Part shown: positions 23,062-63,125 of the stretch, in pieces
Layout of the letters: every line of letters begins with the position of its first letter
Position numbering within the stretch: position 1 is the stretch's first letter
Source of the DNA: Aquila chrysaetos chrysaetos
Lineage: Eukaryota; Chordata; Aves; Accipitriformes; Accipitridae
NCBI RefSeq assembly: GCF_900496995.4
Contig: NC_044029.1
Coordinates: 12,214,001-12,278,000, forward strand
DNA: 64,000 nt
Direction of reading: 5' to 3'
Made by a program: the position numbers and the translations under genes
The notes under the pieces: model-generated
Told to the model about the DNA's origin: nothing
Databases searched by the model: none
Seen by the model: the letters and a program-made list of their open reading frames with translations, nothing else

Positions 23062-23214
23062 GGACGGACGGACGGACGGACGGACGGACGGACGGACGGA
23101 CGGACGGACGGACGGACGGACGGACGGACGGACGGACGGACGGACGGACGGACGGACGGACCGACCGACCGACCGACCGACCGACCGACCGACCGACCGA
23201 CCGACCGACCGACC
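23062..23214 (+). repeat. Compound microsatellite (GGAC)n-(GACC)n
   Basis: About 25 uninterrupted copies of the GGAC/ACGG unit run to about 23160, then about 13-14 copies of GACC/CCGA to 23214. The switch is a single G-to-C change in the unit that has been propagated. It starts 11 bp after the exon 1/intron 1 junction of CSRP2. The tract is open in several frames and so produces long false proteins of repeating four-residue units on both strands. Copy number is probably polymorphic, and such tracts are often mis-sized in assemblies. Confidence 0.95.
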
Positions 23215-26825: not shown

Positions 26826-26944
26826 AGCCACCATGCCGAACTGGGGAGGCGGCAACAAATGCGGCGCCTGCGGCCGCACCGTCTACCACGCCGAGGAGGT
26901 GCAGTGTGACGGGAGGAGCTTCCACCGGTGCTGCTTCCTCTGCA
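26826..26944 (+). CDS. CSRP2: CSRP2 exon 2 (start codon; first half of LIM1)
   Basis: Acceptor CCCGCAG precedes 26826 and the donor GTAAGT follows 26944. The first seven bases are 5' UTR; ATG is at 26833. The exon encodes residues 1-37 and the first base of Met38, including LIM1 ligands C10, C13, H31, C34 and C37. It is CpG-rich, unlike the later exons. Confidence 0.95.
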
Positions 26945-29917: not shown

Positions 29918-29952
<35 letters not shown>

Positions 29953-39116: not shown

Positions 39117-39255
39117 CTACACTAGCTGGTAGCCTGATCCTGAAGTTTGGTCATATTCTATTGTATACTGCCTTGTCCAGTCCACGATAACAGGCCGAAA
39201 AAGACCACAGCATCTGAATTCAAAGAAGTCTATAATGTTCCTTATGCACCCGTGG
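39117..39255 (-). CDS. ZDHHC17: ZDHHC17 last coding exon
   Basis: The first base completes Asn288; 45 residues (289-333) end in SGSGYQLV, then TAG (39119-39117). It encodes the conserved NIIDFFEF and CCGLFRP segments of the cytosolic tail. The acceptor is TTTTTAG. Confidence 0.96.
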
Positions 39256-42200
39256 CTAAAAACAAAACAAACACACATGTTAGTAAGCAATATCATAGCT
39301 CATCTAACAAAGTACAACATTTTTTGTCTACCTACAAATTCGATTCTTCACCCTTTAAGTTCTTAACTGTAGAAAACCAACGCAGTTAAGAATTGTCTTA
39401 GTGCTTGCTGACGAGCAAGTTCTGAAACAAGTAGTAGTCACCAGTAGACCACCAGGTAGTCACCGTGGACACAAGCAAGACACTAACTTTCTTCCACTGT
39501 CTACCAAAAGTGTATGGAGAAACGTAACATGTTATTGGCAGTGCACCATCATGTAGCATAGCATGGTAATTCAGATCCCTTTCTAAGAGGAAAGTTACAT
39601 TGTACAGATGGATGCAAGACAAAACATCATGAAGTGAATGTCTTCCTGGAATAATTTACATTTTTATTAACATCTATTTCTGTCATACATACTTGTTCAC
39701 CAGCTGCAGGTCTAAGATCAATTAAGTCCCTAGACAACACAAAATTAAGAAAGCATTATCTGAATTAAATGAACTATTCAAGTGCTTTCTGCTGCTGAAT
39801 CAATTAATTGTGAAATATTTAAGATACCTACATCAAAATTCCAACAAGTTGGGTTTTTTTAAACTTAATTACACATGGGCTGAATAGATCACGGTTTTCT
39901 GGAAGAGAAGCTTATGTTATGATATATGCAAGAGCAGGTCTAAGCAACAAGGAGATGACAACTACTTGATGTCAATGCTTCATCTGACAGGTGATGTCAA
40001 GTCAGTTATTTTAGACATCTGGTGTTATTTTCAGGAATCATTTTTATAATAGCAGCTATTTCAGTGAAAATGGTTTGTGAACGTGTCATTAATTTAGGGA
40101 TAAAACCAGTAGTTTTTTCCCTATCCTGTGCACCACCCTGCGTTCTTCAGGCAAAATAATTATCTGGTTTTGTTGCAACTCTAATCTGTAGGAAGGCTGC
40201 AACCGTACAGAGATGTTTGTTTGCTTCTCACTAGAAGTTTTGTATGGAGAGATATTAAAAAAGATCACACATATTTCTCTTCTAGCACAAAAATCAAACT
40301 GCAACAATAACTCCTATCTCCTGTTCCCCTGGGTGTCACCTGAAAGAGCAGCAGCTCCCACAGGAGACACAGCACGTGCAGCAGGATGAGACATGCTTCT
40401 GCCCTTTCGCTGCTCCTTTTGTAACATGCCCTCAACCCACCAACATACCAGCCTCACGTCTTCATTTATTTCCTGCTTTGGCTCCACAAGCTGCTCCATG
40501 CCACCATATTCCCATTCCAGTGCTATTACATCCCCGAGCCCTCCTCTTTCAGCTTGCAGCCTTATCACTACAGAAACCAGAATCCCAACCTACCCTTTAC
40601 ATACTGATACCACCCACTTTACCTGCTGCAACACCCACTTCAGTTCCTGGGACATCCTGCTCCCTTCCCCACAAATAGCTTTGTCCATGCTCGTCCTCCC
40701 GAGCAGCAAGTGCTGCCTCTTTTCTCACAGTAAAGAGGGCAAGGGGAGCTACTGCACAGAGCAAATTGAACAGCACATTAAATACCAATCGGGAGAAAGT
40801 GCCTGGTGTAGAAGTGAAGATCCAGGTCAACATCAGCACCATGCGATAAGCAATTACCTCTGGTTTGGGCATCTGATTTATAAAGAGGATATTTATTTCC
40901 CCCTAAACTCTACAGCAAAATATGACCACTGCTGGACAGCATTCTTTTCTGTTTAAGCATCCCTGTCTAGAGTCACTACAAAACGTTTATCACTTCCTTT
41001 AACTGGACAGAATGTGTTACTGTAAAAATAGCTGACAGATTCAGCATTCCAAGTAGTGAAAATACTCTAAAAGTATTTAGCTATGTTCTGTTTCAACAAG
41101 CTGTACAATTCAAACATATGCAAGGCTACACAAAGAGAAATAAGTTTACATTTTAAAACTTACTTGAATGGGCTTTCAATAGACGTGGTTGTAACTTTAA
41201 AGTGCTTGTATCTTCTTGCATTCATTCTTTCATTTGTCGTGATACCCAAGCAAGATATCTGAAGACAGGAAAAAGAGTAAGCCATTTAGCTCATGTAAAA
41301 ACATGCAAAAAAGCCCTGCATGAGCCAGACTGAAAAAAAGAGGACCAAATTTACTGTTTTATATTCCTTCTTTTGAAGAAGGAATTTTTGTCTGGGGAAA
41401 TTAGCAGGTCCCAACATAAAACACCACACAACAGCGGTACCAGATTGTGCAAAAGGTTTAATTTTGAAAGCGATCAGAAATAAATCATGATCACTGAATA
41501 AACTGTGACAACTTAGCTCATAAGAAAGAGATGCCATTACTATATTGTCAGTTGAAGTGTACTGTAAGTAATAGATTCAGGAGTTACTTTAACACAGCAT
41601 TTGAATTACTTTCTTCCCCTCCTGACATTCTGTTCATAGCTCTGGAAATATATTTTTCCCCCATTTATAAATTTGTTGCAGTAATGTAACTTTTTTGTCT
41701 GCAAGACAAAAAGATGACCAGAAAAAAAAGGGGTTTTTTTTGTTAATGTTGCTCATGTTTTTTCCTTTTTACAGAATCATTTGGCCCAATGGCTACAATT
41801 TTCTGTAAAAACTTTCCAACTACATTAGCCTAAAAGGGTATCTTATTTAAAACTGGAGTTTACTGTAATGTGATGTAATCAGAAACAAAAATGAGAGCTC
41901 CCTTAGCAGCCTTATACTACAGGAAGATAAAATCTTGTAATTCCTAGTGAAATATAAAGTCAACTCTGCTGCACATTACAAAAGCAAGAACATTTAAAAA
42001 GGTGAGTTTGGGCTGACTTGCCCCATTTGGATGTGCTTAATATCTCAAGCATTTTCTTTGCCTCCATGAAACCCAGTGAAGTTTCACAGCTACATATAGA
42101 AACGGGCTCTCAACAGCCAATTTTTGAAGTAGGAAGTAAAGGTTTTAAATTATTTTTCTGAGATAGTAAGTAGTGATTTGGCAACAACTCTGGTCAGTTC

Positions 42201-45200
42201 ATGAAGAAGGACAACTCCAAACTTTATGATGGAGAGGGAAAAAAAAAAAAGCACCAAGAGTAGGGGCTATGCAGTTGCAAACCAAAAGAAGCAATTGAGA
42301 GAATATCTTTATCAATTTCATCATTATGGCAAACTCCAAAGAGATTTGCCAAGAATAATCTTAAGTTTTCAATGCGTAAAACTCTTAGGAAACTTAGTAC
42401 TATGACTGTGTGTTCAGTTTTCGTTTTTCCAGGATTATTAAAGAAGTCAAATGCTAGAATTATTTTGCTTAATTACACTAATGATACAAAATACTGTGAG
42501 ATGTATTTTTCCAAGTGGCATAATTCAAAGATTCATCTACGCACAGATTATATTAATAGGAATCCTCAATGGGGAACTTAGTGGATCATGATATAAGTAT
42601 GATGGAAGGCTCTCCAGAAAGTCACATGCTTATTGTGCTAGAAGTCTGGTGGGTTAGACCGTTTTGAAAGCCACCTGAAAAACAAGTAGTTACCTCTGCT
42701 CATTTTTCTTGGGCAGTAAAGACCTCTGTAAGACCGAATGGCTCTCGCTCACACATAAAAGATTTTGAAATTGATATAGGTTGTAAATGAATATTGTAGA
42801 GAAAGGAGGACAAAACTTAAATTTCCTGAAAAGTTTCACCTAAGCCTTAGAGAATTATTTTTATTTCCAGGATCTCTGGAAAGATTAAATCGGTCAAGTT
42901 TCACGGTTCTTTAATGACAAGTCATACTGAAAGACTTTGAAGTCGTACTTAAAGGTTTTCAGTATGGCTTGTCTTTCCTTAAAAATGAGAAAGAAAAACT
43001 TGGGTTTGGTCAGATTACAGTACAGTAATGTGATCTCAAATCACACTGAAGCAGTGTAAAAAATTATTGCATCCCCTTTGAAGCTACCACCCTCTTTCTG
43101 CTAATGACATAGTGCATTATTCCAAATTCAACCCACAGATCTTATCCTCTATTAGTCTTTATTGCCTTTCCCTGGTCTATTTTGTGTTTTTGCCATTCTA
43201 AGAATGTTAAGCAGAAAGTAGGTATTTTAACCTTTTGCAAAAAAAACAAGTGAATGAGAAGAGAATGATGCCTAATATCCAGAGACAACAGATGCCTGCC
43301 TCCTCCAGCGTGGCTGAGAGACTAAGCACTTGGTCTTGCATAATGAACATTAAAATTTAAATGACAGAACTATTTGATATTCTCATGTCACTCCCAAGAC
43401 TCAGCATTACAAATGAAATGCTCTTCCATACCTGATACATCTGACACATGAGTAACACAGCCACCCACATGAAGTGAAAAACACTGTTCAGAAACATCCA
43501 AAACATCCATGGAGAACAGGTAGCAATCTGTGTAATATAGGTCCAAAATCCATCCTTTGCATAACTTGTCTCACAGTGGAAACCCCAATCTAGAGAAAAA
43601 ACAGTGTCAAAAACCATACAGAAGATTTAAGATGTTTACTATACATCAACATAATGCCCACATTAGAATGTATTAAATTAAATAAGAAAATGACAGTGTG
43701 CTAAAGTAGTTTTACTTGCTCTCTCTTCCTTTCCCAACTCCTTGAATACATGACATATGCACATACTTGGCTGTGATGAAAAAAAAAAAATCTAGGACAA
43801 GAAAAAACATAATCTTCTAACTTAAAGTACCCAATATAGTCAATTAATAAAATGCAGTTCAATTCCAGATTAAAAATATCTAAAACTCAGATAAGGCAGA
43901 AATCTGTGAAAATCCATACCAGGAGATAAACAAAGTATTTACAAGCAATTAAAAAAAGCCAAACCCACACATTTACTCACAAGAGATACATCCATAAATC
44001 ATCCAGCAGATCATAAAGAGCAGGAAGAACAGGTATCCCATAAAATAGCGATGGTTTCCTGCTCCTGAAGTTGCACAACAACAGGGATCAAATTACTACA
44101 CTTTCAGATGACAACACTACATCAGAAAGTTTAATTGCTTGCTTAGAAGTACTGCTTATTATTGTATAGAGAAACATTACTCTCCAATATTAAGCCAATA
44201 AAACTTCAAGACAGTGAAATTAGCTGGTTTACTATGATTTTTTTTTTTGCTTCTCAAACAAAGCAATGTTTTATTTTCTTCAATTTCTGTCACATTACAG
44301 CTGCAATTCACACAAATGCATTTCATTTGTAACATCTTTCATGAGCTAATAAAATTATTGATAGACAATATTTAGAACAATGTTGGTGACAGCTGTTGCA
44401 GAGCCCTGAACAGCCAGGAATTACACATCAATAAATATTTTTCAAATTCCATTAAAAAATCGTCAGACTGCAGAGTTCACATTCTTAAAAGAAACAGAAA
44501 TATGAATAAATATACAACCTCCCTTGATAATAAGCTAACTCACAGCTTAGTTGTAAACCTGCTTGACGAAGCTAGCTAAAAGTAAAATATCTAATAGAAC
44601 TTGTAAAACAAATCCATGTAACTGAACAGACGAGGACTAACAACTCGGCTAAAGTAATGAATGGGATAAAACCCATTCTGCTTAAGACAGAATTTAAATG
44701 CAAGAAAATTCAGTTACTAAAAGACTGATCTATTTTTAATATTAATTGAGCTAAAAAGATGCCTTTTATGCGAGTACATCATAATCCTGAAGTACTCGGC
44801 CTTCCTTCTGTTTGTAAAGTATGTCCACTGTTGCAACCTTCCAACAGCTCTAGGCTGTAAACTAAACCCACAGAGATGATAACGGGCTACAAAAGATTTG
44901 GCTGTCATCATCTACCAGCACAGCATTTACTTCTTCATTATGTCAAATATTTTGCCTGCTAACACAAGAGCATCCTCTGCAGGCAGAAAATAATCAAGTG
45001 CTTTTAGCAAGTGAACTCAAAACTATATAAATAAGTGATGAGGAAAAATACACATACAACACAAGCTAGACTAAACACAAGACATTTCCTTGAAAATCAA
45101 ACAAGTTCCTTCAGACATAAAATAGGTTGTAACACTGCCTTCAATCACCTAAGAGCATATAAGAAACAGTGTTGGTAATGTCCCTAAGGTAGCACTTTCA

Positions 45201-48200
45201 TTTGTATTCTAAATTTCAGAATTGGTAAGTTTCATAAAATACATTTTTTTTAAAAATGGAAGTTAAATGGTGACCTAGAGGTCCGTCTGAGAGGCATCTG
45301 ATGAGATGCTTCTTTCAGCAGAATCTTCAATGGTACTAAACCAAATTCCGCTTAACAGGAAATCTCTCTGTATTTAGTAAAAAACATACAGGTAGCATTT
45401 AAAACTATAAATGACACAGGTACGATCTTGGTCACAGTTAAAAAAAAGACTTTGGAAAAATGAAGTTGAGAAACTGCCTTTCTTCTGTATCTTAAATAAG
45501 ACTGGACAAAACACAGCACTGTTTCTACAGTTTCACCCTGGACTGGCAGGAACACAGTCAGTTATCCTCCACAGTTAAAACAATGCTGTAAGAATTGTCG
45601 CTAATTTCTTTTATATGGTTGTGCTTATATTATACATAAGTAATAACATGGAGTTACATCACATGATTTAGACTATTTGTTCATTTCTTAATTTTTCCTA
45701 CTGTTAGGTCCTTGGAGAAGAATCTTTATTGGGGGGGAAAAGTGATCATTATTCTAAACCATAAAATAATTTCTCATATACACAAGACCTACCTTCTGAG
45801 TCACTGCTATCAGAACAATAATTCAGTACAACGTCATCATGACCCATGTGACATAACGGTTTAAAATTTGGCTGTAGCTCCGTTCATGCTATTACTTGAA
45901 AACTAAATTTCTCTTGCAAGTCTGCAGTTTGATTTTGAAAAGTAACTACGAGTTTCATAAAACCTGTTACTATTCATTTTCAAACAACCAACTGTAAAAA
46001 ACATAATGCTATTTTGATACTCCATTACAAAGATAAGCATAATCACCTTTAGAGACTCACTCACTGTAATTTTAACTAAAATTTTGCAGGTATGATAAAA
46101 ATAATTTGCCCCTATTGCCAATTTATTTATTTTCCAAATAGCCTGCACTTTTTGTCAGTCTCTTCAGAATGGTAAAAATATTCTCTCAATCTCTTTTTGC
46201 ACCAAGTTTTATCACCAAAGGATTTATTTTGGAGTGTCTGTACACACTCTTACAATATTTCTCAGTCCTATCTTTAGTAAAAGTCTTATCCTTCTAACAC
46301 ACTCAAAGGAAGCCTACATAAAACATTTCCAAATTCCACCTTTCCAGAAAGGCGTGATTCATGTTTCCCTTTTTGGCAAACATACCATGAATGCTGTTTT
46401 AAGAACGGATTCTGTTTTGTAATCCTATGCTCAGTCACCACGTACCAATCTGAGAGAGACAGAGAAGCCATATAAGGTCATTTAGACCATCACTCCCTCC
46501 AGTTCAGGGCTGTTCCCATAGTGTGATTTCTAATGCTTTTTTCCCAGCATACTTTCAAGCATCCTAATGTTTACTTTTACCTCAAATTATCCCAGTCTGT
46601 ACAAGACCACCACCACCAGTAGGAGGATTTTGCTTTTCCATCACCATTGTTTTTTAAAAAACATTTCCTTCACCTAACTTAATCCCATTACTTGCATGCA
46701 CTTATTACACACAAACTAAGGTCTTTCCTCCCCCATTTGTTTTCTATGCTTTTCCAGTTACTGATTAAAATACTGGATTCTTTCTGTCCCATGGACAAGT
46801 ACTCCTCAGCACTCTTGCAAAACAAACTGTCACTAAACACACTCCAAAACCTGAACCCATGCACCCCGGCCTGTTGTAATTGAAAATGTCTTAGTTGTTC
46901 ATTGTAAAACATCTAAAATATAAATCAAAAGTGGCTCAGGTAGTAACATCAGTAGGAAATATAAAGTAGAATGGACTGATTTAAGTCCACCTCAGTGAGA
47001 CTTCAGTGATGTTCTATTACAACTCAAATACCAGCATTCACTATTTTACTACTCTTGATCATTAGACCAAACTACTGCGACTATCTGTTATTATATATAT
47101 TTGGAAGGACTACAATGAAGGATTTATTGGCTGCCAGCTGCCAATGAATCCAGGTCCTAACTGCTCCCCAAGATTAAAGTTACCTCTGCTTGTGTGCTAA
47201 AAAAATAAACCAGTGAAGCAAGCTGCACTCATTTCCTAGCTGTGAAGCCTTCAGTGCTCCCTGCATAATAATGGCTTTCAAATAAGTTTCTCAAAATGTA
47301 TGACAGGGAATAGTGGCATTTAGAGACTTTATTCCTGTTCTGTATCTGTTCCTTTCATCATCGCTGGGGAGAATAAATGACTACCTGGGGGGTCAAAAAG
47401 AGGAGAATACCTCAATAGGAAGTCATTCTGTATCTAACTGCTATAATCATGGCATTTTTGAATCGTGTACTTTCCCATTATATTACCAAAAATTATTGGT
47501 AAAGATGAAAATTTTTGTCTTATGTAAAGGAAAACAGTCAGTTGTGGAATTGGTACATGCCTTTTCTGCAGACTTTAAAAAGGAGTTAAGCTTTGCATCT
47601 TTTTATTACTAGAGTTTATGTTAATAAAAATAAATATATAGGAAACTGAATTAGACACAGAACAATTTTGAGGATGGGTATATAACAGACAATACAAGTG
47701 AGAATAATGCAGAGAATCACATGTAGAAAAAAGATTAAGCTCAATATTGAAAATGTTTTTCCTTCTACCAAAATCCTTAACGGTTTTTCTCAGACTTTGG
47801 CAGAAGCCAAGTCACTTTCACCGTGAAATGAGAACAGAAAAACACCCTGCAAAACACCCAGGGTCAACTTCAGAAGCTTTTCCCTTCTTTATCTGTTAAG
47901 ACAACATGGTATTTTAGCAAATGACTCACCTACACAGTTACCCACCCATGGGCAGTGGTGATCAAACTTCGCTATACACCGATTGCATACACCACAGTGC
48001 TTGGACCTCACTGGCTTCCGTATCTGTAACAGTTATTAACATTTGTTTAGAAAAGCAAAAAACCCGACATATTACAAATAGAAAAATACGCCTCAATTTA
48101 CATTTAATTGATTTTGATATTGTTAACCCCTTAAAGAACTTAAAACTTGATACTAATTTTTAAAGCAATCTTAGCTATTAAGCTTCATCTACACACTATT

Positions 48201-49274
48201 TAATACAAACTTCTATACAACCACATTGAAATCACTTCCACACTATTTTTGTTATATAAAGGATTTTTTTCCATACAAAGTTCTCCCATCACCTCCAGCT
48301 GTTGAGCTTTGTACAGCAACCAGTTTCATTTCAGCTTTTTAACAAAGAAAATAGAGAATGAGTTTGAGTTCCACAATTCTGTCAGTAATGTTCATAACTG
48401 AGCTCTAAAATAAATTCTTCCAGCTTATTTTCTAAAGACAAGAATAGACTCAACAAGTGGAACTCAGTGGGACTTAAAATGCTAAATTACTCCCAACGAT
48501 TTTTTTTAAAAGTTTGTTTGGAAAGAAATATAAAATAGCAATAAAAAAAGAACTGCTATTAAACTGTTCTGAGATATATATGCATACACACACATAATTT
48601 TTAAGGTGCCACATCTGTACATAATTTTCCAGATTAAATTTTGGGAAGATTAACATCATTCGTGTCCTACATAGGTCAGAGCATTATAGTGTAACACTGA
48701 TAAACCTGATAATTTTATATTTACTAGTTAACTTTCTAAAAAAGAAATGCATTACATTTACTATGGTTACTTTTTTTTTCCCCTTAAGCAGTTTTTTCCT
48801 TTTAAATTTTCTGTGGTAAAACTAAGTATTAATTAGTCCAAGAAAAGTATTTGCTTGCAATTTGGCAAGCTTTATAAAAATTAAGATTTCCCCCTGCCCT
48901 GATTACTACCAAATTGAGAAATACACTTGATTTTTGAAAGAAATTTTTTACTAGAAGCATCATGTAACTTTACTGTGAGTTACAGAGGTGGTGGGATGTC
49001 ACCTGTGATTTTCATAACTTGTTAGGTGTACAACCAACCATCTTGGTAGGTATATTGGATACTTGGATTTTGACACTGGCAAGTTATTTCCACAGTGATC
49101 ATTTTTTTCTTCCTCTTATTGTTGCAGGGTTTTTTGTGTACAGATATACTACAGATATATTATTTATTGAAAACACTGCTTAAATTAAAGATTACAAATA
49201 AACCTTGCCCTTGAAACTGCATTATTAAGGCCAAAAAGGTGTTCAGTATAGGAACATCTAATTTCGGCCTAGCA

Positions 49275-49305
<31 letters not shown>

Positions 49306-52300
49306 AGTGCTGCAATTGATTAAAAAATACACTACCAAGCAGGTACTGCAGAATATACTGAGGTCCAGACTTCCTGTCTCTGCAAGTTCTACTATTGTCT
49401 GCAGAAAAAAGAGAAAAGAAAAGAAAAGAAAAGAAAGAAATTAGAATTTAGCATATAAACAAATGCTAACAACCATCGTAACAGCTTCTTTTCAGACCCA
49501 GGGTCGTGAATGTTATTCATCTCAGGTACTTTCTACACACAGGAACAACTTAAATTCTGCTGAAACTGATTTTAAACCTCCTTTATTAAACCAATACGCT
49601 CATTTACTTCTAAATTAATTCTAGCTTATACTTATTCCTAGTCTATCTAGGTTTAGAGAAAAGGCAAGCTTATATTAATTTTGATACACCTACACAGTGA
49701 TTAGCATCAGTTTGACTAACCTGTTGTTAAACTTATTAAAATTAATGCAGCTGAATTTCCAAACAGGAACATAAATAAAACTAGCTAGCAGGATCAGCCA
49801 GTCTAAACCCCAGACTTTCTTTCCAGAGGTATCCCACCAAAACCTTTACATCTATATTCACCTCTTTCCTCAAATGTTGAAGTTTCAAGAAAGAAAAGAA
49901 ATAATGCAAACCAAACCTCCTCTTACAGATAATGCTATACTTATGGGTCAAGTGATCCACAGAAGTAGGAATCGGTTAAGCATGCCTATACATTCACACT
50001 GAATGATGTATTTCCTTTTTTATTTTGTACACTCCTTCAGTACCCACTACATTGTTGGAATAGAAGGAATCTATTACTCCATTAAATGGTTTCCAACAAT
50101 TTTTAAAATTCAGCAGCTGAAATCATGCCATGTGAGCCTTAAATGACATTTGCAACATATGGAAAATATAATGAAAACATTTTTTTCCAGAATATCCTTC
50201 CTTGAACCAGAAGGAGCTCGCTCCGCATAAACAGCCTAACGGCAAATAGATTAATCTGTTCCCTTTCAAACCACGTATACCATTCACATCAAAGTGGTTT
50301 CTAACTGCAGAAGCAATAAAATAGTCCTTACAACTATTTTCCTCATCACAGTAATATAAACATAACTACCTTAATTAGACGATGACCACTAAGGTGGGCA
50401 TCTTGACCGAAGCTGCCGAAGTTTTCCTCCAAAATACTACACTTAATAACTGGTTTGGAAAAATTTATGGAAACTTTTCCTCAAAGTAACCAGTAAAAGC
50501 TACAGTCAACAGTCCAGGGGTAAATCAGTGTCTTAATGCTTTCCCTGCTGATCTCAGGTAAATGAGGAACAGTCTTCACAGTTTTCTAACACTTCTAAGC
50601 CCTGAAAGTTGGGACTATTCTTTTCTCCTTGCTTGTTGTACTTCCATTTGCTATTGGCCCAGTATTCTTGCCTCCACCACTGCAACCCTTCAGATCCCCT
50701 CTCCAACCATCCACTGCCGTTCACAAGTCCTTCCATGTCTCTCTTGCAGCTTGCCAACTTCAGTACTCAACGTCGCTTTCTCATCGCCCTCTGCCATCCC
50801 TCACTGCTCTAACATTTCCCACTACAGGACTTAAAATTAAAGGGCCTCCCTCACAAGAGTAACTTTTGTAAATAAACCAGATGAACAGAAAGCAAAAAAC
50901 CTGACGAGATGTATCTACCATGATTTCAATGCTGCTGGTGCGGCTTTTGATACCTTAGACAATTTCATACAATACCTTTTGGACAATTTCATACCTAGTT
51001 CCTCTGATTTCAGTGAGAGTATACACTACACTACAGACTAACGAAAGGATGCACCAAGGAATGTACGTGGTGTGATGCTCAGCACTGGAGTTCAGTATTG
51101 TCCACAAGCAAGATCCCAAAGCTCAGGAGAACAGAATTGAACAAGAGCAGATAAATCACTTAAATATAACTCTCATCAGAGCTTATAACACAGAGATCCA
51201 GGAGTACTCAAGTTAGAGCCACGTTGCTGTGCTTTGTAAACCTTGGGTCTATTTTCTATGCTTTTGAACTATTGGAAAATTTTATTTATTTTTTATTTAC
51301 TTATTTGAAAAGTGACTTGGGTTATTTTGTAACAGAGAAGAAAGGACATGACATATCAGAAGGATAAACATCTGAAATTGTTGCTTACTATGCACTTCCA
51401 AACATACTTAACTTGGTCATCTGGAATTAAAAGAATTTTTTTGGTTGCTTATTCCAAAGCTAAAGGCTAACTCAACATTAAACGTCTGGAGACAAATTAT
51501 GAAAATGTGAGAAAGCACTACATTGCATGAAGGTAAGACACACACCCTAAGGTGGTTTATACCCCTGATAATAGATCATCTTACAATTTGGGTAGCTGCA
51601 ATGTAAGAAGTCCAAAACATTCACAGCCATATGCATCTGCCTGAAGACGTTGCATTTTACAATTCCTATCCAGTTCAGCCAGGCTTTTGTAACCACACTT
51701 AACTACTTAAGCAAGCAGATCAAATAAATTGCATATTTGTGCAATTTGCTGAATCCAAACCAAAGTGCAGTTGCTGACTATTCTATTTAATTTAGTCCAG
51801 TTGAAGGAAGAGAATTTAGCCTGGAATTTACTTTGGCAAATTTGCAATAATAGAAAGGGAATTTGCAAGTAAATCTGCACATTGACTAACAACTCAGTTA
51901 TAACCTATTGGAGAATACAAAAATCATTTAAGCTATTGCAACCATCCTTTCAAAGGCTATTACATGTCTATTCCTACATACGGCCATAATTCCAAGTGGT
52001 CTGATGTCGATCCATCCACAAAGGTGTTTCCACAAATGACTGTGAAGTAGAAGCTCAAGGATGTGAGCTTCTAGGAAACTTACCCAAAAAGAAACAAACA
52101 AAATGCTTCTGCTGCTTGTATAAAATTTTGGCATATTCAATGCTCAGTTTGGCTGCTAAGAAAAATGCACTTAATAGAAATCAGAAGTGCTAATAAAAAG
52201 TGTTATAACATCTCAGAAAGGTATCATTAGATCATCCATATTTTCTCTAACATTTATACCAGAACAAAAGCCCACCCCAGATTGCCAGGGGTTTTAGTTG

Positions 52301-55300
52301 TTTTAGCCTCAAAAATGTTTGTCAGTCTAATACTTTTAGATGTAAAAGTTAGGAAAATTGGAGGTGCTTAAAAGTCTGGGAGGTTTTTATAAAATCAAAT
52401 TAACTAACACTTTCCCCACAATGGCTTATTTGTTTCAGTAAGGCAAAACTCTGAAACTTCACGTTTTCATTTTCACCCAACTGCTTTTTAAACTTTTTAT
52501 CTTGAAAATTTAAGTTACAATTTTATTTTATTACTCAAAAAGACCAAAATGCAACTTTGGACCAGTAAGACTTGAACATATATTCCAAATGCAAAAAAAA
52601 GAGAAACCTGGAAGACAAGACTTTTCAACATTTTAGACCTTTTGTTATACAACAATTTATTGAAATTTCACATACTGAACAGCAAACTACTCTGCCCAAC
52701 TGGTGGAAGGCTGCTGAAGAACAAGTTTCACATAGCTCTTGGCTTTACCTTTTTCTTTTGTTCTTCCGTGGCTTTGATGATTCCTGGATCAGATTTCCAG
52801 GATTTTCCAAAATTGTAGAAAAGTGCAATGCTATTAGCGAGGAATGGAAGATGTATAAAGAAAAAATTGAGATGTGTTTAAAGTCAAGGAATCTAAAGTT
52901 TAAAGCCAAATTTCCTCTGAAAACACCCACTGATAATTCTGAAATAAAATTTGAATAAATTTAATTTTTACAAATGCCCCCGAGTCACTGTATTCTGAAA
53001 TTAACAAAATTCAGTGCTGCTGTAAGAACTAGCTTAGTACTCAGTATTTTCTATTGCTTAAACTTGAAAATTTACTTTTTAAAATGTCGTTCTCCATGAT
53101 GCATTTCTAAAGCACTTATCCTTCTAAAGAATGAATAACGATAGTTCAGTTTTTGTAATTATTTTCCCTTTTAAATAAATAAAATTCCATGAAATTTATC
53201 TTCTTAAAAGTATTTCCTGTTTTCAAAATAAACATTTCAGAGCTCTATTTATGAGATAGACATTTGACTGCCTATGTCTTCAGTGGCTTGACATTCCCAT
53301 TAGATCACAGACAGGACTGTTTCTAGCCATAGAAGGAATTGTGCTGCAACAACCATTGGTGCATGGCAATCATGTCTTAACACTTATCTCCAAGAAAGGT
53401 ACTGTCTGAAACCTCGTCCTATTATAAGGCAATACCCATATTTTACATCAAAGTTATTTTTAACATACTAATACATCTAATACTTACAAAACCACAGGGT
53501 TTAGTATTCTCTGGAAGTGCTTATAAAATCAATTACCATAAAAAGACAGAAAACAACCATTAGTTTTAAAATATATTTCCTGTGTTGAATGACTTGCCAT
53601 ATAATATGCCTAGTCTTACAACACTTGACATTTCTTCACCGAATTAAAACAATTTGAAAAACCAAATACTTCAGATATGCTGCTTCCACAAAAAGCAGAA
53701 AATTATTTACTCTGATAAACCTACAAAAGACTTGACCAAGCTGACTAAAGATACCTGTCAGCTGTCAGTCATAACTGTAAGGACATGCCATATTTGACAA
53801 AGCTGTGGTGGCAGAAGCCTCTACAGCATTATCCAGGCAAAAAGGACACTTATTACTCAAGCGTACTCATTAGAACTTCTACTGTATATAACTTTTATAT
53901 GTTTAGTATATTGTGTGTTTACATTACAAAACCCTGCATATAAGACTTAAAAACAAGCATTATGTGGCAATCTGTAGTGAACTGGTATGTAACACTTCAA
54001 AGACAAGAACAAAAAGCCATTTTTTCAATGCTTTGAAAAAAATCTGATTTTGAAATTAGAACAGATGCTCAAGTATGTTCTGCTATATATCTACAAGTAT
54101 ATTCTATTCTGTTTGACTCTATTGGAAAAAATGTTTGTTGAAGGCATTAAACAGTATTAAGAAAAAAATTACACAAACCATTGATAAACAAATCTACCTG
54201 GTATAGCTACAAGCAAATATTAAACGAAAAACCCACAATTTCTATAGAATAACTTCTACACTGCTCTTGTGATGTGAAAGAACCCTGAAATATGAAAAAA
54301 TACAAGTAAGGCCTCTTTTTGACTTCTGAAATACTAACAAAGCCTCATTGTTCATGTGAAGTGTATCCCAAATAACTTCTGTTTTCCTTCTGTTGGGGGG
54401 AGGAATTGGCTGTGAATTTCTAATTAAAAAATATTGGCAAGTTAAGTTAAAATTTTAATCATGTACCTTATACAATAGAATATTACTATTAACTCACTAA
54501 AGGCTGATTAATCTTTCCTCTAACAAGCTGTTTCCAGCAAGTTTATAATAGGGAGAAAAAAACACCAGCTATACTATAAGCTAAACACTCACAGTTCTAT
54601 TTGATACATTACAGATGAAGAGTTCTGACTTTAATATTTACACAATCTAATTTCTTCCTATTTTTTTTCTAAAACTACCTGCTGCCAAGTATAAGCTGGT
54701 TCAACTTACTCGTACAGCTACAGAGAGATTACATTTTCTTTAGAATACTACAAGTATCACTGGGGGGTTTGCCACAACAGTGAAAACTGTTTTTTTCATT
54801 GAAAATACCTCAATCAGACATCTGTTACAAACAATTAAGGCACAACTGAAACAATTATATGACCTATTCCTAATTACTATATGTCATGTCTAGACTGTTG
54901 AAGATAGGGGGAAAGAATTAATTTTGTATCCTGTAGAAGGGGTTTTATAATCTTAAAGTTTTGGAATTGTTTTTTTACTGACTAAAATTTGGACAACCTG
55001 TGTGATAAAGAAGCCGTCTTTTTTCTGAACTTACCCTTCCCCCATTTTACTCCACAATATACAGAGAGAGCATAAGAGACTCCCCACAGAGTCTAAGTTT
55101 TGCCTTTCCTTTTATCATGGTGGTGTCAGATGAGTGCAACACTGACGGTATAAACGGTGGCAGGTAAGGTACTTCCGTGCTGAGGATGTGAGATGTCAGG
55201 AGACTGCATGAGAAAGTAGAGCAGTAACTATGTCAATGGGGAAATACAAAGTCAGCAGTATTTTTCATTAGTATCTTCAAAACCCCATTTCTCATAAGTT

Positions 55301-58300
55301 TTACGCAAAACTGAGGAGAAGGAATGAAAACCAACAAGACTTTTAAGGAGGAAGGGAAGTTAGAATTGTCTTCTCCGGGATATTTCTGGCATATTATGTA
55401 AACAACTCCAACCGTGGGATTCATCTCACCTACCTTAAATCACTCAGTGTGCCTTCATATACAACAGAAAAGAAAAAGGCACATCCAATCTATCTTCAGT
55501 ATCAAGATATTTAAATTAAGCGAGAGGAGCAGTGCCCTCCAAGTGGCTTATGTCTCTCCACTGGCTACAAAGAGAGCTTAAACAACTAACTTAGATATGG
55601 ATGTCCACACTAGAGGTATCTCAAGTTATGTTGAACTCCCCTTTGAAGTTTACTTCCAAAGAGATCTTAGCAACTTGTATCACAGACATCTCTCAAAACT
55701 CTCCATAGGTGAGAAACCTTTGTAGGTTTGCATTAGCTACAGAGTAGGAAATCGGTTCTCCAGAGAGTATGCCTTGTTTTGTCCTAACATCCTCCATTAC
55801 AACCACACAAGGAAAAACGTTACCATATTATTAAAGGCTGCAAAATGCATGATACAGCAGGCATTCACCTGCCCTGTCACCAGTTTGCTGCCTTTTATGA
55901 AGTTTCCCCAGTTTTCATTGTGAGAGACAAAGCAGAAACACCCATGAAACACTTCCTACTTTTAGTCCTAATCAATATCCTCTAATTATTAGAAAAAGTA
56001 CAACAGGCTGAAAATTATTCCAGGAAACCACTTGGAACCCAAAAGACCAACTCATTAAAAAGAAAATTAAAAGCCAACAAGCACCCCACAACCCATGAGT
56101 GAGGTAAACATGTGATGAGCTAATTTTTCATCCTGAACTACAGACTATTTAAAAGGGTTCAAACACATGCAGCTTCCTGCTATCACAGCAATACATCATA
56201 CAAGAGTCTGAAACCAAGTAAAAAATGCACATTATATACCAAGATGCTCCCTTCCACTAACTACAAATCCAGTAATAAAGTCCTTTGCTCCTAAAGAGAA
56301 AAATCTGCAGCCACTGTAAGCTCTCAAAGATCAATACATGCTCATGAACCTGCCAATTCATAACAGCTGTACATCTGGATCCAAGAGTCCAGGTAGATAA
56401 CAGCAGATAGTTACACAAGAAGCCTCATTTGTCTAGGTATTTATTAGACAAAACCATTTTTAATCAACTGAAGCTCTGCAAAAGCTTTCTACCTCTAACA
56501 TTAAAAAAAACCCTTAGCTTGCAAAAACAATTCATTCACTGCCATCTCCCCCACCCCAGATTTTTTTTTTTTTTTTAATTTTAATTTAGAAAAAGTATTT
56601 AGAAGTTCTGGATAGCTGGGTCTGGGGTTTGGATTTTCTGAGTCTTTGGTTCCTCTAGAAACATGGCTGCATGCAAGGAAGTGAATGGCTGCATTTCTTC
56701 CTGCATGCAAGCCTTTTTGCTGTTTTCCTGAAGCTAATTTTGGTAATACGAATGGGGTTTTTTGGTTGTTGTTTTAACTGCTTAACTGTACCAGTTGGCT
56801 TGTTACAGTTTTTAAAACACTATGCTATTGTAACAGCTTTGTGAAAGCATGAAAAATCATCATGAATTCTCTTACACCCAGTTTTTAAAATGATCCCTAA
56901 TTGAAAAAGTATGCAGTGTTTGTTTTCTTTTCTCTAAAACCCATCAATACTGAAATATATTTGAAATAAGATAATCAATACAGTATTAGTCAATGATAAA
57001 TTATTTTTAAAATTATAAATTGGCTTATATCATCTCAGCATCTCAGCATTGCAAGTAGTATGCTCTACCAAAAAAGTTTAATTAACGAAAACTGCACATT
57101 CCCATTTGCACCAAATGGAAGTGGTAGAACCAAAAAACCTGCCTGCGAATATTTTGGGTTACAGCAAACCCTGACATTTTAGAAAAACAGAGCAGTATAA
57201 GAACCTTCTGCCATAACAGACACTATTTGTTCAGCTGGAACTGAAAACGCTGCGTGAACAACTGAGATATGAACTCAGTGCATGTGCCCTGAACTTTTAC
57301 AGGACACAGGAGAATGTTCTACCTATAAGTGCTAATGAAAAAGAATGAAATGTGAAATTCTAGTCTCAAGTTATTAAAACTTTTAAATCCTTTTTTTTTT
57401 CCTTTTGAAATTAAAACTAAATTAAAATATAGTGATTTAGTGTGTAGGATTTTTGAGGGTTCTTTTCCCCCTACTCTGCAAACAGTAGAAGATTAGAATA
57501 CACTAACAGAGCAAGACATAACTATCCTTTGTTATGGGCAAAATACAGTTAAAGGGAAGCAGCAAAATAGCAGCAAAACAGTGGCAGGGAAGCATAGCAC
57601 TATAGACTCACATGATCTGTGTATTTATGGATATAACTTCCTCATTCCCAGCAGGAATAGGATTTCTATTTTAACAAATATAGCAGACTCAGAAGCTGCT
57701 GAGAAAAATCCACTAGAACGGAAATATTGACAAAAATTCAGTACACTAGATTCATCCAAACTGTTTGAATTTACTTTCAAGATTGGTCTTTTAAAAGACA
57801 CATCATTAAGCCTTAGCATTTATAGGCTTATTTGTCATGTGACCACCCTGAAATTCAAGAAAACACACTGCTAATCTTTGGTTTTGTTTGTTCTTTATGA
57901 TACATTGTTTCAACTGCCCTTTTCTGTCTCATTAGGACAAAACGCAGAAGACCTGATGATCTTCCAGACACCTTCAACATATCTACAAGAAAAGAATATT
58001 CTTACCAAACACCCAAATATTAAAGTAATAATTGCAGCAATTAAGACCTTTAAATTATTTGTAATACAAAGTTCCAGTAAGGCAATTTGTGATAGTTGTT
58101 TAAGGTTAGAAACTTTTTTCCTGAGCAAAAGATGGTTAAAACTTGTGAAAACTACCAGGATAGGTTTTATCACTTGAACGTTACAGACTATAAAGTAGTA
58201 CTTTGGTCTGCTGTAAGTAATCATATAAAGCTGTAAAAATACAAGAATCCTTTCTCCAACCACAATGCTGTGCCTCATGCCATAAAAATAGAGCAGGCAT

Positions 58301-61300
58301 GCAATTTCTTTTTTCCAATAAAGCTACAGGGCAATTTTCCAGAAGAAGAATGAATTTGGAATCTTATTACAAAGACTTCCAATTAAAAATCACCAATTAA
58401 AGGAAGATGGCCTCAAGCACTAAGTCTCTAAAACTGCTTGTCAGAGAATTGTGTCAGCTCTAATGAAAGCAATTAGGAACTAAAGTTTTTAGACTACTAC
58501 TTCTGTGTACAAAAAGACTGTTGCAAAGGTTTTGAGGCACCTACCTTAAATTACAGAACCAGTACAGTATTTTATTGACATTCTGAAGTCAGACTTTATT
58601 AGGGTAATTAATTGTCTATGGTTACTACTTCTAGTGGGCAAGGAACATTATTTTGTGACCAAAGAAACTCCAAACTTCAAGTTACATTAATCAGAATGGC
58701 TAACAAATAAAAATCTAAGCAAGTTGGTACAAATATGAAGAAAATACAAGCTTTAGGATAAAAATCTCACAATTTGCCAGCCTGAAGGGACAGCTTTCTA
58801 CCATCATCAAGTTGTGTTGTCTGTGCAGCCATTTTAATATGGTCAAGGATTTGATTTAAAGTTGCACACATTCTTAGATTTGGTTCAAGTTGATGTTATG
58901 TTAGCACAAGAAAGCATTTCACTGTAGCTCAACATTTGCAACCCAAAACATGTAGTAGCATTAGCAAACGTGAGTTTCTAAAGAAACCCTACGGCGTATG
59001 GAGAGCTGAGATTCAGAAGTGAGATGGTGTAGTTCTAATTGCCTCAGAAACTTGTATTTTACTATTTGCCAAAAGTCAGGTTTTCTTAACAAGAAGAAGA
59101 GAAAAGCAACTTCACTCTAGAGGCATGACATATTTAGACAGTTCTACTCCATTCCATAAAACCTGAAAAAGTATACCTCCATTTTTAACTACTGCTTTTT
59201 AAAATGTTTTTCATATTCATTTCGTACTCGCTTTCCTCATTCTGCAGTTACTAGTAATTTTAATTGAGTAAAAACATAGAATATCAGGCCAGAGAGACTG
59301 GTAGCAGGACCAGCATTTCTAAATAACTATTTCAAGACATAGTCATGCTAATACTGATAGAATTACTTTTTTTTTTATTTTTTTTTTTAACTTAACAGCT
59401 ACTAGATTTTCATTTTTAGGTTTTTAAAACGTGAAATAGCAGTCATCTCCAGTCACATGGGACTGCTATTATTCACAGCAGCACCTTTGCAAACACTGTC
59501 AGCATAGAAGCCAAGGGCAGCATGGAAGCAGGGTCTCCTCTCTGTTCCCAGCCCAAAAATGCGAGTCTCATTTAGCTAAGGTTGGAGAACATATTAACAA
59601 GATGATAAAAGGGTTGCACTGCTACTATCCTATTTCATGGTAATTCCTTTGAGGAGGAAAAGAAAACCAGTTTCTAGAAAAGCCAAGCCAACATCCATCA
59701 CAAATATTAAGTTCACTTCAAGTATTTACAACTGTAAGAACTGTATTAAACATTTAATAAAACATTAAATCTCTATTTTCGTTTCTTGGTTATTGTAATT
59801 TCAATACCCAAGGAAGTTGTTTAAAAATTTGAATATATTTCCTTAAGGTGGGGAACTGATGTTCTTCAGTGAACTCAATCATTTTCTACCCCGGTGAGTA
59901 CAAAAAGTTCCTATCTAGGCAGACCGTAAAAAACATAAAAAGATGGGCATATGCTGAATCTCTGTAATCTAGTGTTGTTAATACATACATCTTCAAAAAC
60001 TGAAAATACAGTTAACAAATGTATCTAAAGTCTGTACGAAATGGAATTTGCAAAATCTTTAGGAAGAACTAACTATAAAGCTAATTCCATTGGAATTGGT
60101 ACATACCACGAAATTACCTACTGCTTTGCAGAAAAGCAGTGTGTAAAAACACAGTCAATTACACCTTGTCACCTCACAGCCAGAGTATATTTTATAGAGT
60201 TGCTTACATTTCCCCCACTTAAGAAACTGGTAAAGCACAGGAAGTTTTGCAGACTACTGTAAGCCAATTTTGAGGAAAATCTTTCACATACTGAAGCAAA
60301 GCAATAGAATGCACATTTCTAAAGCGGTAAAATAATTACCATCAATATAGAAAGCAATGTTTAATAGAGATAGCCATTTTAAAATTTTAATTTGTTTACT
60401 TACTCTTATATATAGGATATATCTAGGTATTACCTCATCCTACTAACATGGAAAAGGATTACTTATTGCTGTACACAAAAAAAGGATATCATTCCAAAAC
60501 CAGAAGAACCACGTCACATACATCCAGAATTTTGTTGCCAAGTATATTCCAAGAGGCAGTGCACTGTGCATGGAGTGATCAAAGAATGACCTGTAAAGTA
60601 GGAGCAACGTCACATGATAAGTTTCGACTTATAAAACGTAAATCCTGAGCTATTGCTTCTGAAAAACACTTGCCGTTAAAATATGTACTATATGGGATAT
60701 TGCAAAATAAACCATAAAAACATTTTCCCTCTCTTTTACCTTCAAAGTTCATGAGAAATTCCCATCCTCAACCTGTCCAGGTGAAGGGTCGTGACTGAAA
60801 ATTATTTAACTAAATTTATACATTTGCTTTTGAAGTGAATGTCAAGAACTGGACAAGAAAGGTAGAATGAGTAAATACTCATGCTAAAACAACACTGTGA
60901 AAGCAGTTAGAAACCTGTCAGATTCCTAGCCTACACAGATAGTAGTTGCAAACTACATTTAGTTATGAGATTTCAGTGCTAAAGATATTTTGGAAACCCA
61001 TGCAATGAAAATTACACATTAAAATTACTTCAGTAAGAAAAAAAAGCGTAGGAGACCTTGGTGTTATCAGCCTACATACTTGAAATATTTCAGATTCTTG
61101 AATCTTTTGCCAATAGAAAGCCGGAAGAAAACCCAGATTAATTTACTTCCAACATCACTAGATTTGCCAAGTTCTAAGATAGAATGCTGCTACTTTAATT
61201 AAAAAAAAAAAAAAAAAAAAAAAATTAAGCCATCAGAGTTATTTTCACCTTCTTATACTCTTGCATTTCAAAGACTGTTCTGAATACAGTTGAACATAGT

Positions 61301-63125
61301 GGAGACAAACTAGGTGAGTGTCTAGGTTACTCCATATTCACGAAAAAAATTGCTAAACATATCAAAGGTCACACTGAACTGCTAAACTCCTTGAAATAAA
61401 ACTTCTTCCATCATCTGCCTAAACTTCCTTACATTGATGCATTTTGCTTTTTGTCCTGGTGGTGCCCTCAGGTCTGCCACAGACAAACACGTGTGCACCG
61501 AGTAGTTTCCATTTCACTCCTTTACTCCCTTGCAGTAACTGTCTTTTCTCTAATGGAAGTTTCTTAGGCCTTTTGAGAAAATCCTATAAGGAAAATGAGC
61601 TAAGATGGTGACTAATAAGTGAATATACATTTGGACACACAGTAGTTACTCAGCAGTAGTCTTTCAGCGATTTTTGCGCATTTTTTTTGTGTGTGAAAGG
61701 AGTAGGGAGGAAAATACAGCTAGGCAGATTAGCTAAAAATTCAACAGGGAAAGGAAATCCTACTAGAATAATAGCAAAAGTTTCATTCAAACCTGGGCTT
61801 TGTGAAAAACACTTCAAAGTATTTATACTAATCATTAAGCAAAGGATAAGAGAAAGTAAGAATGTTAATCCTGAATACGTGTCAGGTAGGTAAAAATATA
61901 AAACTTGACAAAACATAGATCTTGAGAAACTTGAAGAAATCTTGTCCTTGCTTCATGCAGGAGGCATGGTTGAGGATCTGCATTGCCAAATAAATTATTT
62001 GTAGGAGGAGGTCAGCAAATTGCACAGCCGCAGAGATGACAAAGAGACTAAACAGATCATCTTGAAGATCCTGGAGAGATAACAGCTTGATGCCCCCTCA
62101 CCCCCTTCCTGGTATACTAAGTTCACTAAGATTCTATGAACTTGGTTTACAGAACAGATATATTTTCTTTTCCTCTTTAAAAGGAAAGGAAGAAGCAGCA
62201 ACTGTTTCTAATAAGCATGACATTCAATACCAGAAAAGCAGAAAGCTCGTAAGTATGAAATAGTAAGTCCTTCTATACACGCCACACATGACAATGAAAA
62301 GCAAAGCATAGATGAAGTAGTCTACAGATTTTGAAAATCTGTTGGAGCATGCCTGTGTGTGTATATGCACATGCATTTACAGATAATTAAAGCAATCACA
62401 AACACAACCAAAATTCTTTATGATCAGGTAACAAATGAAAAACATTATTAGAAAGCAGCCTTTTTCTTTAAGTCACCCATTTCCACAACAACAGAAGCTA
62501 TAAAACCTGACTCTAACTTCATTTATCTCTAAAAATCTCTTCAGATGCCTTTGGGTATTTAAATTCTAAAAAAATTTGGTTTTAAAAGCAAACTCATACA
62601 TGCATTTTTTCTATTTCTTTCTAGTAACTTTTTCCTTGACTGTTTTCTTCAAAATTCATGCTGATTACTGTAGACAGACATTCAGCACCCTCCTCTGGAG
62701 AATGACTGAACTTCTGTTCTGCTCTTAGCTTCTATTACCTCAGTGGTATTCACCCAAGGCAATTCCATGGCTATTTGCAAGACAACAGAGCATTACAAGA
62801 GCTAAAGTTCCACAAGATCTTTCCCAGAAATAGTAATAAAAAAAAAATTCCAACAAAAAATAAATGTTGCATGTCCAAAAACCCACGCAAAAAATATAAA
62901 GTTAAGATTACTTATCCAATAAAGATGCCAGCAAAACACTTGTGCACGCACTAAACAGACAGCATCCTAGTAAAACACTTACTTTGAAAGAAACTGCACC
63001 ATAGCCCAAACGCCACCATACATCAGCCCTTTAATGAGCCAAGAATCAATGTCTAGGTCTGCTATAAACCCAACCAGCCAAATTACTAGGAAAGGAGTTC
63101 CCAGCATCACCTTCTGACGGAATTC
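39117..63125 (-). CDS. ZDHHC17: Palmitoyltransferase ZDHHC17 (HIP14), C-terminal 333 residues, nine exons, 5' part outside window
   Basis: Joined - strand exons 63125-62983, 60590-60490, 52873-52749, 49398-49336, 48023-47930, 44064-43981, 43589-43432, 41258-41164 and 39255-39117 give 1002 bases, ending TAG, with every phase matching. The product S-acylates huntingtin, SNAP25, CSP and other neuronal and vesicle proteins at the Golgi. In fragment numbering, membrane spans fall near 6-25, 28-46, 58-80 and 84-103. The cysteine-rich domain spans about 138-183, with the DHHC motif at 165-168 (catalytic C168, equivalent to human C467 as I recall), followed by spans near 184-203 and 232-252. TTxE is at 263-266. 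The N-terminal ankyrin repeats (about 299 residues in human) must lie to the right of 64000. ZDHHC13 is the paralogue but lacks this close identity and has DQHC. One intron is of the AT-AC class. Confidence 0.95.
39256..41163 (-). other. ZDHHC17 intron before last exon
   Basis: U2-type GT-AG intron (donor GTAAGT). An unexplained pyrimidine- and GC-richer island lies at about 40376-40760. No other gene is recognised. Confidence 0.9.
40376..40760. other. Unexplained pyrimidine/GC-rich island in ZDHHC17 intron
   Basis: Rich in CCC, CTC and CCA words within an otherwise AT-rich intron. It supports the longest chance frame of the intron (40393-40956 on +, no recognisable domain). It may be an old inserted repeat, but I cannot name a family. 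Confidence 0.3.
41164..41258 (-). CDS. ZDHHC17: ZDHHC17 exon with TTxE motif
   Basis: Encodes residues 257-287 and two bases of Asn288. It includes [15 protein letters not shown], carrying the TTxE signature that packs near the DHHC active site in this family. Acceptor CTTCAG, donor GTAAGT. Confidence 0.96.
41259..43431 (-). other. ZDHHC17 intron with extended palindrome
   Basis: GT-AG intron (donor GTATGG). It contains the imperfect inverted repeat at 42895-43002, entered separately. It is otherwise AT-rich with no gene seen. Confidence 0.9.
42895..43002. repeat. Extended imperfect palindrome / hairpin
   Basis: Core arms 42916-42932 (GACAAGTCATACTGAAA) and 42957-42973 (TTTCAGTATGGCTTGTC) pair over 17 positions with one G-U wobble in + strand RNA. 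Inside, CTTT (42935-42938) pairs with AAAG (42951-42954), leaving a 12-base loop. Further out, CAAGTTT (42895-42901) pairs with AAACTTG (42996-43002) and TTCTTT (42907-42912) with AAAGAA (42990-42995). It could be a decayed miniature inverted-repeat element or a microRNA-like hairpin; I recognise neither family. Confidence 0.7.
43432..43589 (-). CDS. ZDHHC17: ZDHHC17 exon with last membrane span
   Basis: Two bases complete Tyr204, then residues 205-256. It encodes the lumenal loop after the DHHC domain and the hydrophobic span [20 protein letters not shown]. Acceptor CTCTAG, donor GTATGG. Confidence 0.97.
43590..43980 (-). other. ZDHHC17 short intron
   Basis: A 391-base GT-AG intron, phase 1, donor GTGAGT. 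Nothing else is recognised in it. Confidence 0.9.
43981..44064 (-). CDS. ZDHHC17: ZDHHC17 exon following the DHHC core
   Basis: Completes Gly176 and encodes residues 177-203 and one base of Tyr204: [17 protein letters not shown] and the rest of the next membrane span. Acceptor CTTCAG. Confidence 0.96.
44065..47929 (-). other. ZDHHC17 intron with old CR1 fragment
   Basis: GT-AG intron, donor GTGAGT. AT-rich; it carries the decayed CR1-like segment at about 46450-46830. A perfect CArG-type sequence CCATATAAGG (46468-46477) lies at the start of that segment. No gene is seen. Confidence 0.85.
46450..46830 (-). mobile_element. Ancient CR1-type LINE 3' fragment (decayed)
   Basis: Read on +, the order of words matches the reverse complement of a sauropsid CR1 3' end as I remember it: AAGGTCATTTAGACCATC, then GGGCTGTTCCCATAGTGT, TTCTAATGCTTT, a CCACCACC stretch, TTAATCCCATTACTT, and TTTCCTCCCCCATTTGTTTT. 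The element is heavily diverged, with no intact reverse transcriptase. The short - strand open frame here (46688-46912) is part of this debris. The match is from memory and the boundaries are approximate. Confidence 0.5.
47930..48023 (-). CDS. ZDHHC17: ZDHHC17 exon with catalytic DHHC motif
   Basis: Encodes residues 145-175 and one base of Gly176: the zinc-binding KHCGVCNRC segment, then [12 protein letters not shown]168 of DHHC is the acyl-accepting cysteine. The zinc-knuckle cysteines and histidines are present, so the enzyme should be active. Acceptor GTTACAG, donor GTGAGT. Confidence 0.98.
48024..49335 (-). other. ZDHHC17 intron with A27 tract
   Basis: GT-AG intron, phase 0, donor GTAGTG. 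Contains A27 on + (49277-49303), close to its donor end. No gene is seen. Confidence 0.9.
49277..49303 (+). repeat. A27 homopolymer tract
   Basis: Twenty-seven A residues on +, a T-tract in the ZDHHC17 pre-mRNA, 33 bases downstream of the 63-base exon's donor. Confidence 0.9.
49336..49398 (-). CDS. ZDHHC17: ZDHHC17 63-base exon (start of cysteine-rich domain)
   Basis: Exactly 21 codons (residues 124-144), phase 0 at both ends. It includes [10 protein letters not shown] and the first zinc-binding pair FCSTC (C140, C143). Skipping would keep frame but remove these cysteines. The acceptor is preceded by an unusual (TTTTC)n pyrimidine repeat. Confidence 0.96.
49401..49441 (-). repeat. (TTTTC)n microsatellite serving as polypyrimidine tract
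   Basis: On + this is a GAAAA repeat; on the gene's strand it is a run of TTTTC units ending TTTTTTCTGCAG, directly before the 63-base exon. The microsatellite therefore is the polypyrimidine tract of that 3' splice site. Confidence 0.85.
50560..50860. other. Second pyrimidine-rich island in ZDHHC17 intron
   Basis: Similar texture to the island at 40.4 kb, with three overlapping short + frames that lack protein signatures. It may be repeat debris. No shared long word with the first island was found by eye. Confidence 0.25.
52749..52873 (-). CDS. ZDHHC17: ZDHHC17 exon after the AT-AC intron (fourth membrane span)
   Basis: Two bases (AT) complete Asp82; 41 codons follow: [14 protein letters not shown] and [18 protein letters not shown], ending in KKK before GTAAAG. 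The exon has no upstream AG acceptor; it begins directly after AC. A - strand open frame (52745-52930) overlaps it in the wrong frame and is not real. Confidence 0.95.
52883..52891 (-). promoter_or_regulatory. U12 branch-point sequence
   Basis: TTCCTTGAC on the - strand, matching the U12 consensus TTCCTTRAY. It lies 9 to 17 bases from the AC intron end, the short spacing typical of the class. Confidence 0.88.
60480..60489 (-). promoter_or_regulatory. U12 AT-AC 5' splice site
   Basis: ATATCCTTTT directly follows TGGAATG of the exon. The seven-base ATATCCT core is the most constant part of minor-class AT-AC introns. Confidence 0.9.
60490..60590 (-). CDS. ZDHHC17: ZDHHC17 exon before the AT-AC intron (third membrane span)
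   Basis: The first base completes Lys48; 33 codons (residues 49-81) follow, then one base of Asp82. It encodes [14 protein letters not shown] and the aromatic span ending WFFWFWN. Acceptor TTTACAG; donor of the AT type. Confidence 0.96.
60591..62982 (-). other. ZDHHC17 intron with A24 tract
   Basis: U2-type GT-AG intron, donor GTAAGT, phase 2. Contains A24 on + (61201-61224). No gene or known transposon is recognised. Confidence 0.9.
61201..61224 (+). repeat. A24 homopolymer tract
   Basis: Twenty-four A residues on + inside a ZDHHC17 intron. Confidence 0.9.
62983..63125 (-). CDS. ZDHHC17: ZDHHC17 first exon in window (membrane spans 1-2)
   Basis: 47 codons and two bases of Lys48. [19 protein letters not shown] and [18 protein letters not shown] mark the first two membrane spans, straight after the ankyrin repeats in the family. 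Acceptor TATATAG, donor GTAAGT. The next upstream exon (ankyrin region) is not in the window. Confidence 0.96.

Follow-up and report, generated by a model that had tools for sequence, protein, structure and literature searches.

A 7,616-nt intron of phase 1 in ZDHHC17 of Aquila chrysaetos chrysaetos (52874..60489, minus strand, in the analysed stretch of 64,000 nt, hereafter the window) is, on its sequence features, almost certainly a real U12-type AT-AC intron, which would be a substrate of the minor spliceosome and would have been of this type already in the common ancestor of ZDHHC17 and ZDHHC13. The sequence-only reading had placed such an intron, with its characteristic letters, at this location, and direct reading of the coordinates and the sequence bore this out. 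The U12 identity was upheld by the sequences of its splice and branch sites, the absence of any GT-AG alternative among the junctions tried, a paralogous intron, and genomic matches to U12, U6atac, U11 and CENATAC. No evidence against the class was found among the sequence signals, the reading frame, the paralogue or the snRNA genes.

The exons were located by tblastn with a human ZDHHC17 protein bait, and the 3′ part of the gene was modelled with exact exon borders as nine coding exons up to the stop codon (39117..63125, minus strand). When joined, these exons formed a single open frame of 333 residues, with the last base of the stop codon at 39117, and the encoded protein contained a Pfam DHHC domain (E = 1.7e-37). 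Seven of the eight introns modelled between the last nine coding exons were GT-AG, and only the second, 60489..52874, was AT-AC. A search of solved-structure sequences was set aside; its matches were other DHHC enzymes (ZDHHC5, 9, 20 and ERF2), and its query began one residue past the split codon, so that it had no bearing on the junction. Elsewhere in the window, coding exons of CSRP2 were found on the plus strand (26833-31754), convergent with ZDHHC17, which is the neighbourhood known from human chromosome 12. Four of the five CSRP2 exon matches showed 93-100% identity, and the fifth, whose stretch ran past the exon, showed 74%. Upstream of CSRP2, a G+C-richer stretch contains a microsatellite in which GGAC is repeated 38 times almost perfectly (23062-23213). 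Rfam returned no match at the gathering score over the window.

Exon B, upstream of the intron (60490..60590, minus strand), ends with TTTTGGAATG, which supplies the first base of a split Asp codon, and the intron opens with ATATCCTTTTTTTG at 60489, straight after the exon end at 60490. The consensus strings of the U12 class are ATATCCTTT for the 5′ splice site and TTCCTTRAC for the branch site. The U12-type 5′ splice site ATATCCTTTT (60480..60489, minus strand), recognized as a sequence signal, matched the former at nine of nine positions directly at the exon end, and it contains 6-nt stretches able to pair with U6atac and U11 as encoded in this genome. The U12-type branch site TTCCTTGAC (52883..52891, minus strand) ends 9 nt short of the intron's 3′ end, and its TTCCTT could pair with AAGGAA of U12. 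The 3′ end itself reads TTCCTTGACTTTAAACAC, with the last letters AAACAC running to 52874, and the AC terminus forming the 3′ splice site (52874..52875, minus strand) was read directly. No polypyrimidine tract was seen immediately before the AC acceptor (GATTCCTTGACTTTAAACAC), the tract-free end being GACTTTAAACAC. Exon C, downstream of the intron (52749..52873, minus strand), starts with AT followed by CTCAATTTT and reads ATCTCAATTTT from 52873. The branch A lies 10 nt from the 3′ end in ZDHHC17 and 12 nt in the ZDHHC13-like paralogue described below, the optimal branch distance for U12-type introns being given as 11-13 nt (PMC6717393).

The join of exons B and C, TGG AAT G|AT CTC AAT, encodes W-N-D-L-N in a frame that continues uninterrupted to the ZDHHC17 stop, which confirmed the earlier claim that an Asp codon is regenerated with conserved protein on both sides. 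This residue had been numbered Asp82, a count that holds from the first residue within the window; it corresponds to residue 381 of the human bait. All junctions combining an intron start at 60530-60431 with an exon start at 53400-52849 were tried exhaustively, and three restored the conserved protein, namely AT-AC, TA-CA and AT-AT, which differ by shifts of 0-2 bases within a shared AT; none was GT-AG. As read from the sequence, the junction is ambiguous owing to this shared AT repeat, and the choice of AT-AC is set by the U12 consensus only.

Two other explanations of these borders were weighed. The intron might be removed by the major spliceosome as a U2-type AT-AC intron, since introns of this kind do exist (PMC8280824 mentions 85 that are AT-AC or of related subtypes and belong to the major class), but the complete U12 consensus at the 5′ site and an equally complete, correctly spaced U12 branch site, without a pyrimidine tract at the acceptor, speak against it, as does the ZDHHC13-like gene, which carries the same U12 signals. 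Features of the U2 type, that is, a degenerate branch site, a pyrimidine tract and no U12 consensus, were not seen in the ZDHHC17 intron, and we consider this explanation highly improbable. Alternatively, the AT-AC ends could be merely apparent, with a GT-AG pair hidden elsewhere or with two introns enclosing an unseen small exon. AG dinucleotides do occur upstream of exon C, at a distance of at least 19 nt, but the exon ends join seamlessly into conserved protein, none of the GT-AG pairs within the range tried does so, and an additional exon would add residues that the human protein lacks. Moreover, seven of the eight AGs in the last 147 nt of the intron shift the frame, and the sole in-frame one (exon start 52987) brings stops. 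Inside exon C, the first AG falls at bases 42-43, in agreement with the sequence-only reading, which had seen none before base 42. From the sequence, a hidden pair or exon would therefore seem the least probable account, with almost no chance of being correct, and the U12-type assignment is retained below.

Neither motif is rare by itself in 64 kb, and their significance lies in their position exactly at the intron borders that the protein requires. In the 64-kb window, RTATCCTTT was matched once against 1.45 expected, TTCCTTRAC three times against 1.73 expected, and the combination TTCCTTRAC-N6-12-AC twice against 0.36 expected. With both motifs and the AC end at protein-fixed positions, the chance expectation is about 4e-11, a rough estimate from base composition. 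The second match of the form TTCCTTAAC...AC (37773-37755, minus strand) was dropped as a candidate; it falls 3′ of the ZDHHC17 stop codon (39117), no exact RTATCCTTT occurs in the window besides the one at 60489, and 0.36 such matches were expected by chance. The U12-like branch and acceptor string at this site, TTCCTTAACTATTGTTTAC (37755-37773, minus strand), is probably due to chance.

The search of the window protein against the same assembly (1.23 Gb, 144 contigs) returned 23 matches. Outside the window's own gene, the best single match fell on contig C24, in a DHHC exon (E = 1.4e-12), and collinear matches to query residues 134-188, 195-268, and 282-320 were found at C16:26172541-26177868. 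In the 30 kb around the C16 locus, the upstream side showed an ordered series of exons with similarity to the ankyrin region of the ZDHHC17 bait (identity 34-93%, best E = 5e-20), and the gene is presumably ZDHHC13, the ankyrin-bearing sister of ZDHHC17. At the homologous codon and in the same phase, this gene contains an AT-AC intron of 2,698 nt, ATATCCTTTG ... TTCCTTAACCTGAATATTAC (C16:26182168-26179471, minus strand). Its homologue of exon B is directly followed by ATATCCTTTGTACT, that of exon C is preceded by TTCCTTAACCTGAATATTAC, and the join reads FFWFLP-G-VTSTILEIAVVF, where five residues on each side separate the split codon from the nearest tblastn-aligned residue. With equal phase and five residues to the aligned block on each side, the intron position is therefore the same in both genes.

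The two introns are alike in codon position, phase, 5′ site ATATCCTTT, branch motif and AC end, whereas they differ in length (2,698 vs 7,616 nt for ZDHHC17), branch sequence (TTCCTTAAC vs TTCCTTGAC), and split codon (Gly vs Asp). A blastn comparison of their interiors gave no significant similarity (best E = 0.06), and the shared intron ends are therefore not a recent copy. Since the ZDHHC13-like gene has an AT-AC intron at the same codon and phase, the ZDHHC17 intron can be dated to a time before these genes arose by duplication; judging from the sequences, an AT-AC U12 intron was most likely present at the homologous position before the split, and its signals outlived the remaining intron sequence. 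Conservation in relatives was thus found in one paralogue, the ZDHHC13-like gene of the same genome, and this homologous AT-AC intron is new beyond the sequence-only reading. The paralogue also reads YDHHSVWIGQC at C16:26177829-26177734, where the DHHC motif has a serine instead of its catalytic cysteine, so that in Aquila chrysaetos chrysaetos this copy may lack palmitoyltransferase activity.

Genes for the minor-spliceosome machinery were matched in the same genome, each with matches in 0 of 14 control genomes: U12 snRNA with one match (149.5 bits), U11 snRNA with one (110.7 bits), U6atac with three, of which the strong one is on C24 (134.4 bits), and CCDC84/CENATAC with three on one contig (best 76.6 bits). 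The comparison covered three of the four minor snRNA genes (U12, U6atac, and U11). The two weaker U6atac matches, at C2:37537929-37538041 and C13:1164901-1165026, scored 39.9 and 35.5 bits against a family cut-off of 33 and are probably degenerate copies. In antiparallel pairing, the ZDHHC17 intron matched each of U6atac, U11, and U12 at 6/6 bases, with UCCUUU of the 5′ site opposite AAAGGA of U6atac, CCUUUU opposite AAAAGG of U11, and the branch-site stretch UUCCUU opposite AAGGAA of U12; the paralogue intron matched U6atac at 6/6, U11 at 5/6, and U12 at 6/6. By the steps established for the U12 class, U11 would recognize the 5′ site of the ZDHHC17 intron, U12 would pair with the branch site TTCCTTGAC, and U6atac would then take the place of U11 at the 5′ site. 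The minor spliceosome would remove the AT-AC intron, and the major one would remove the other introns of ZDHHC17.

When the frame of exon B is read on into the unspliced intron, codon 16 is a stop if the split Asp codon is taken as codon 1. Such read-through would predict truncation before the DHHC domain, together with decay of the mRNA if exported. Minor introns of the AT-AN type are described as having relatively high basal retention and as CENATAC-dependent, with 92% affected by CENATAC depletion (PMC8280824). The earlier proposal that ZDHHC17 output is sensitive to minor-spliceosome activity is plausible and is consistent with the stop at the 16th codon and with this published behaviour (PMC8280824). 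The actual use of the intron in RNA, its dependence on CENATAC and any regulatory role are points that we infer. Should the intron be limiting for expression, the functions exposed in minor-spliceosome disorders would include palmitoylation by ZDHHC17, which is a modest point. It is a tentative and rather doubtful extension that the AT-AC intron, which lies between membrane spans 3 and 4 and predates the split, was kept as AT-AC in both genes and not as GT-AG or U2-type, and that the two palmitoyltransferases with ankyrin repeats may both depend on the CENATAC branch of the minor spliceosome, a link that would tie minor-spliceosome disease to neuronal palmitoylation.

Among the introns of vertebrates, about 0.3% are U12-type, and chicken has conserved 94% of those present in human (PMC10639083). 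The share of AT-AC among human and mouse U12-type introns is given as about 22-24% (PMC6717393). U12 introns are biased against phase 0 (PMC7367187), with which the phase 1 of the ZDHHC17 intron is consistent. Literature searches for ZDHHC17/HIP14 or ZDHHC13 as minor-intron genes, with supplementary gene lists outside their scope, returned nothing relevant, and the string "ZDHHC" was absent from the main text of the minor-intron papers that were term-searched. The supplementary minor-intron gene lists are expected to contain at least ZDHHC17.

The ZDHHC17 intron is a further example of a well-known class, its signals are textbook, and no claim is made that it is unreported. It is a clean minor intron, and its annotation would require AT-AC-aware tools. 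In the features tested, it showed no difference from vertebrate U12-type AT-AC introns, with which it shares the terminal dinucleotides, the 5′ site ATATCCTTT, TTCCTTRAC near the 3′ end and phase 1, and like them it is a single minor intron among GT-AG introns, as far as its gene was modelled.
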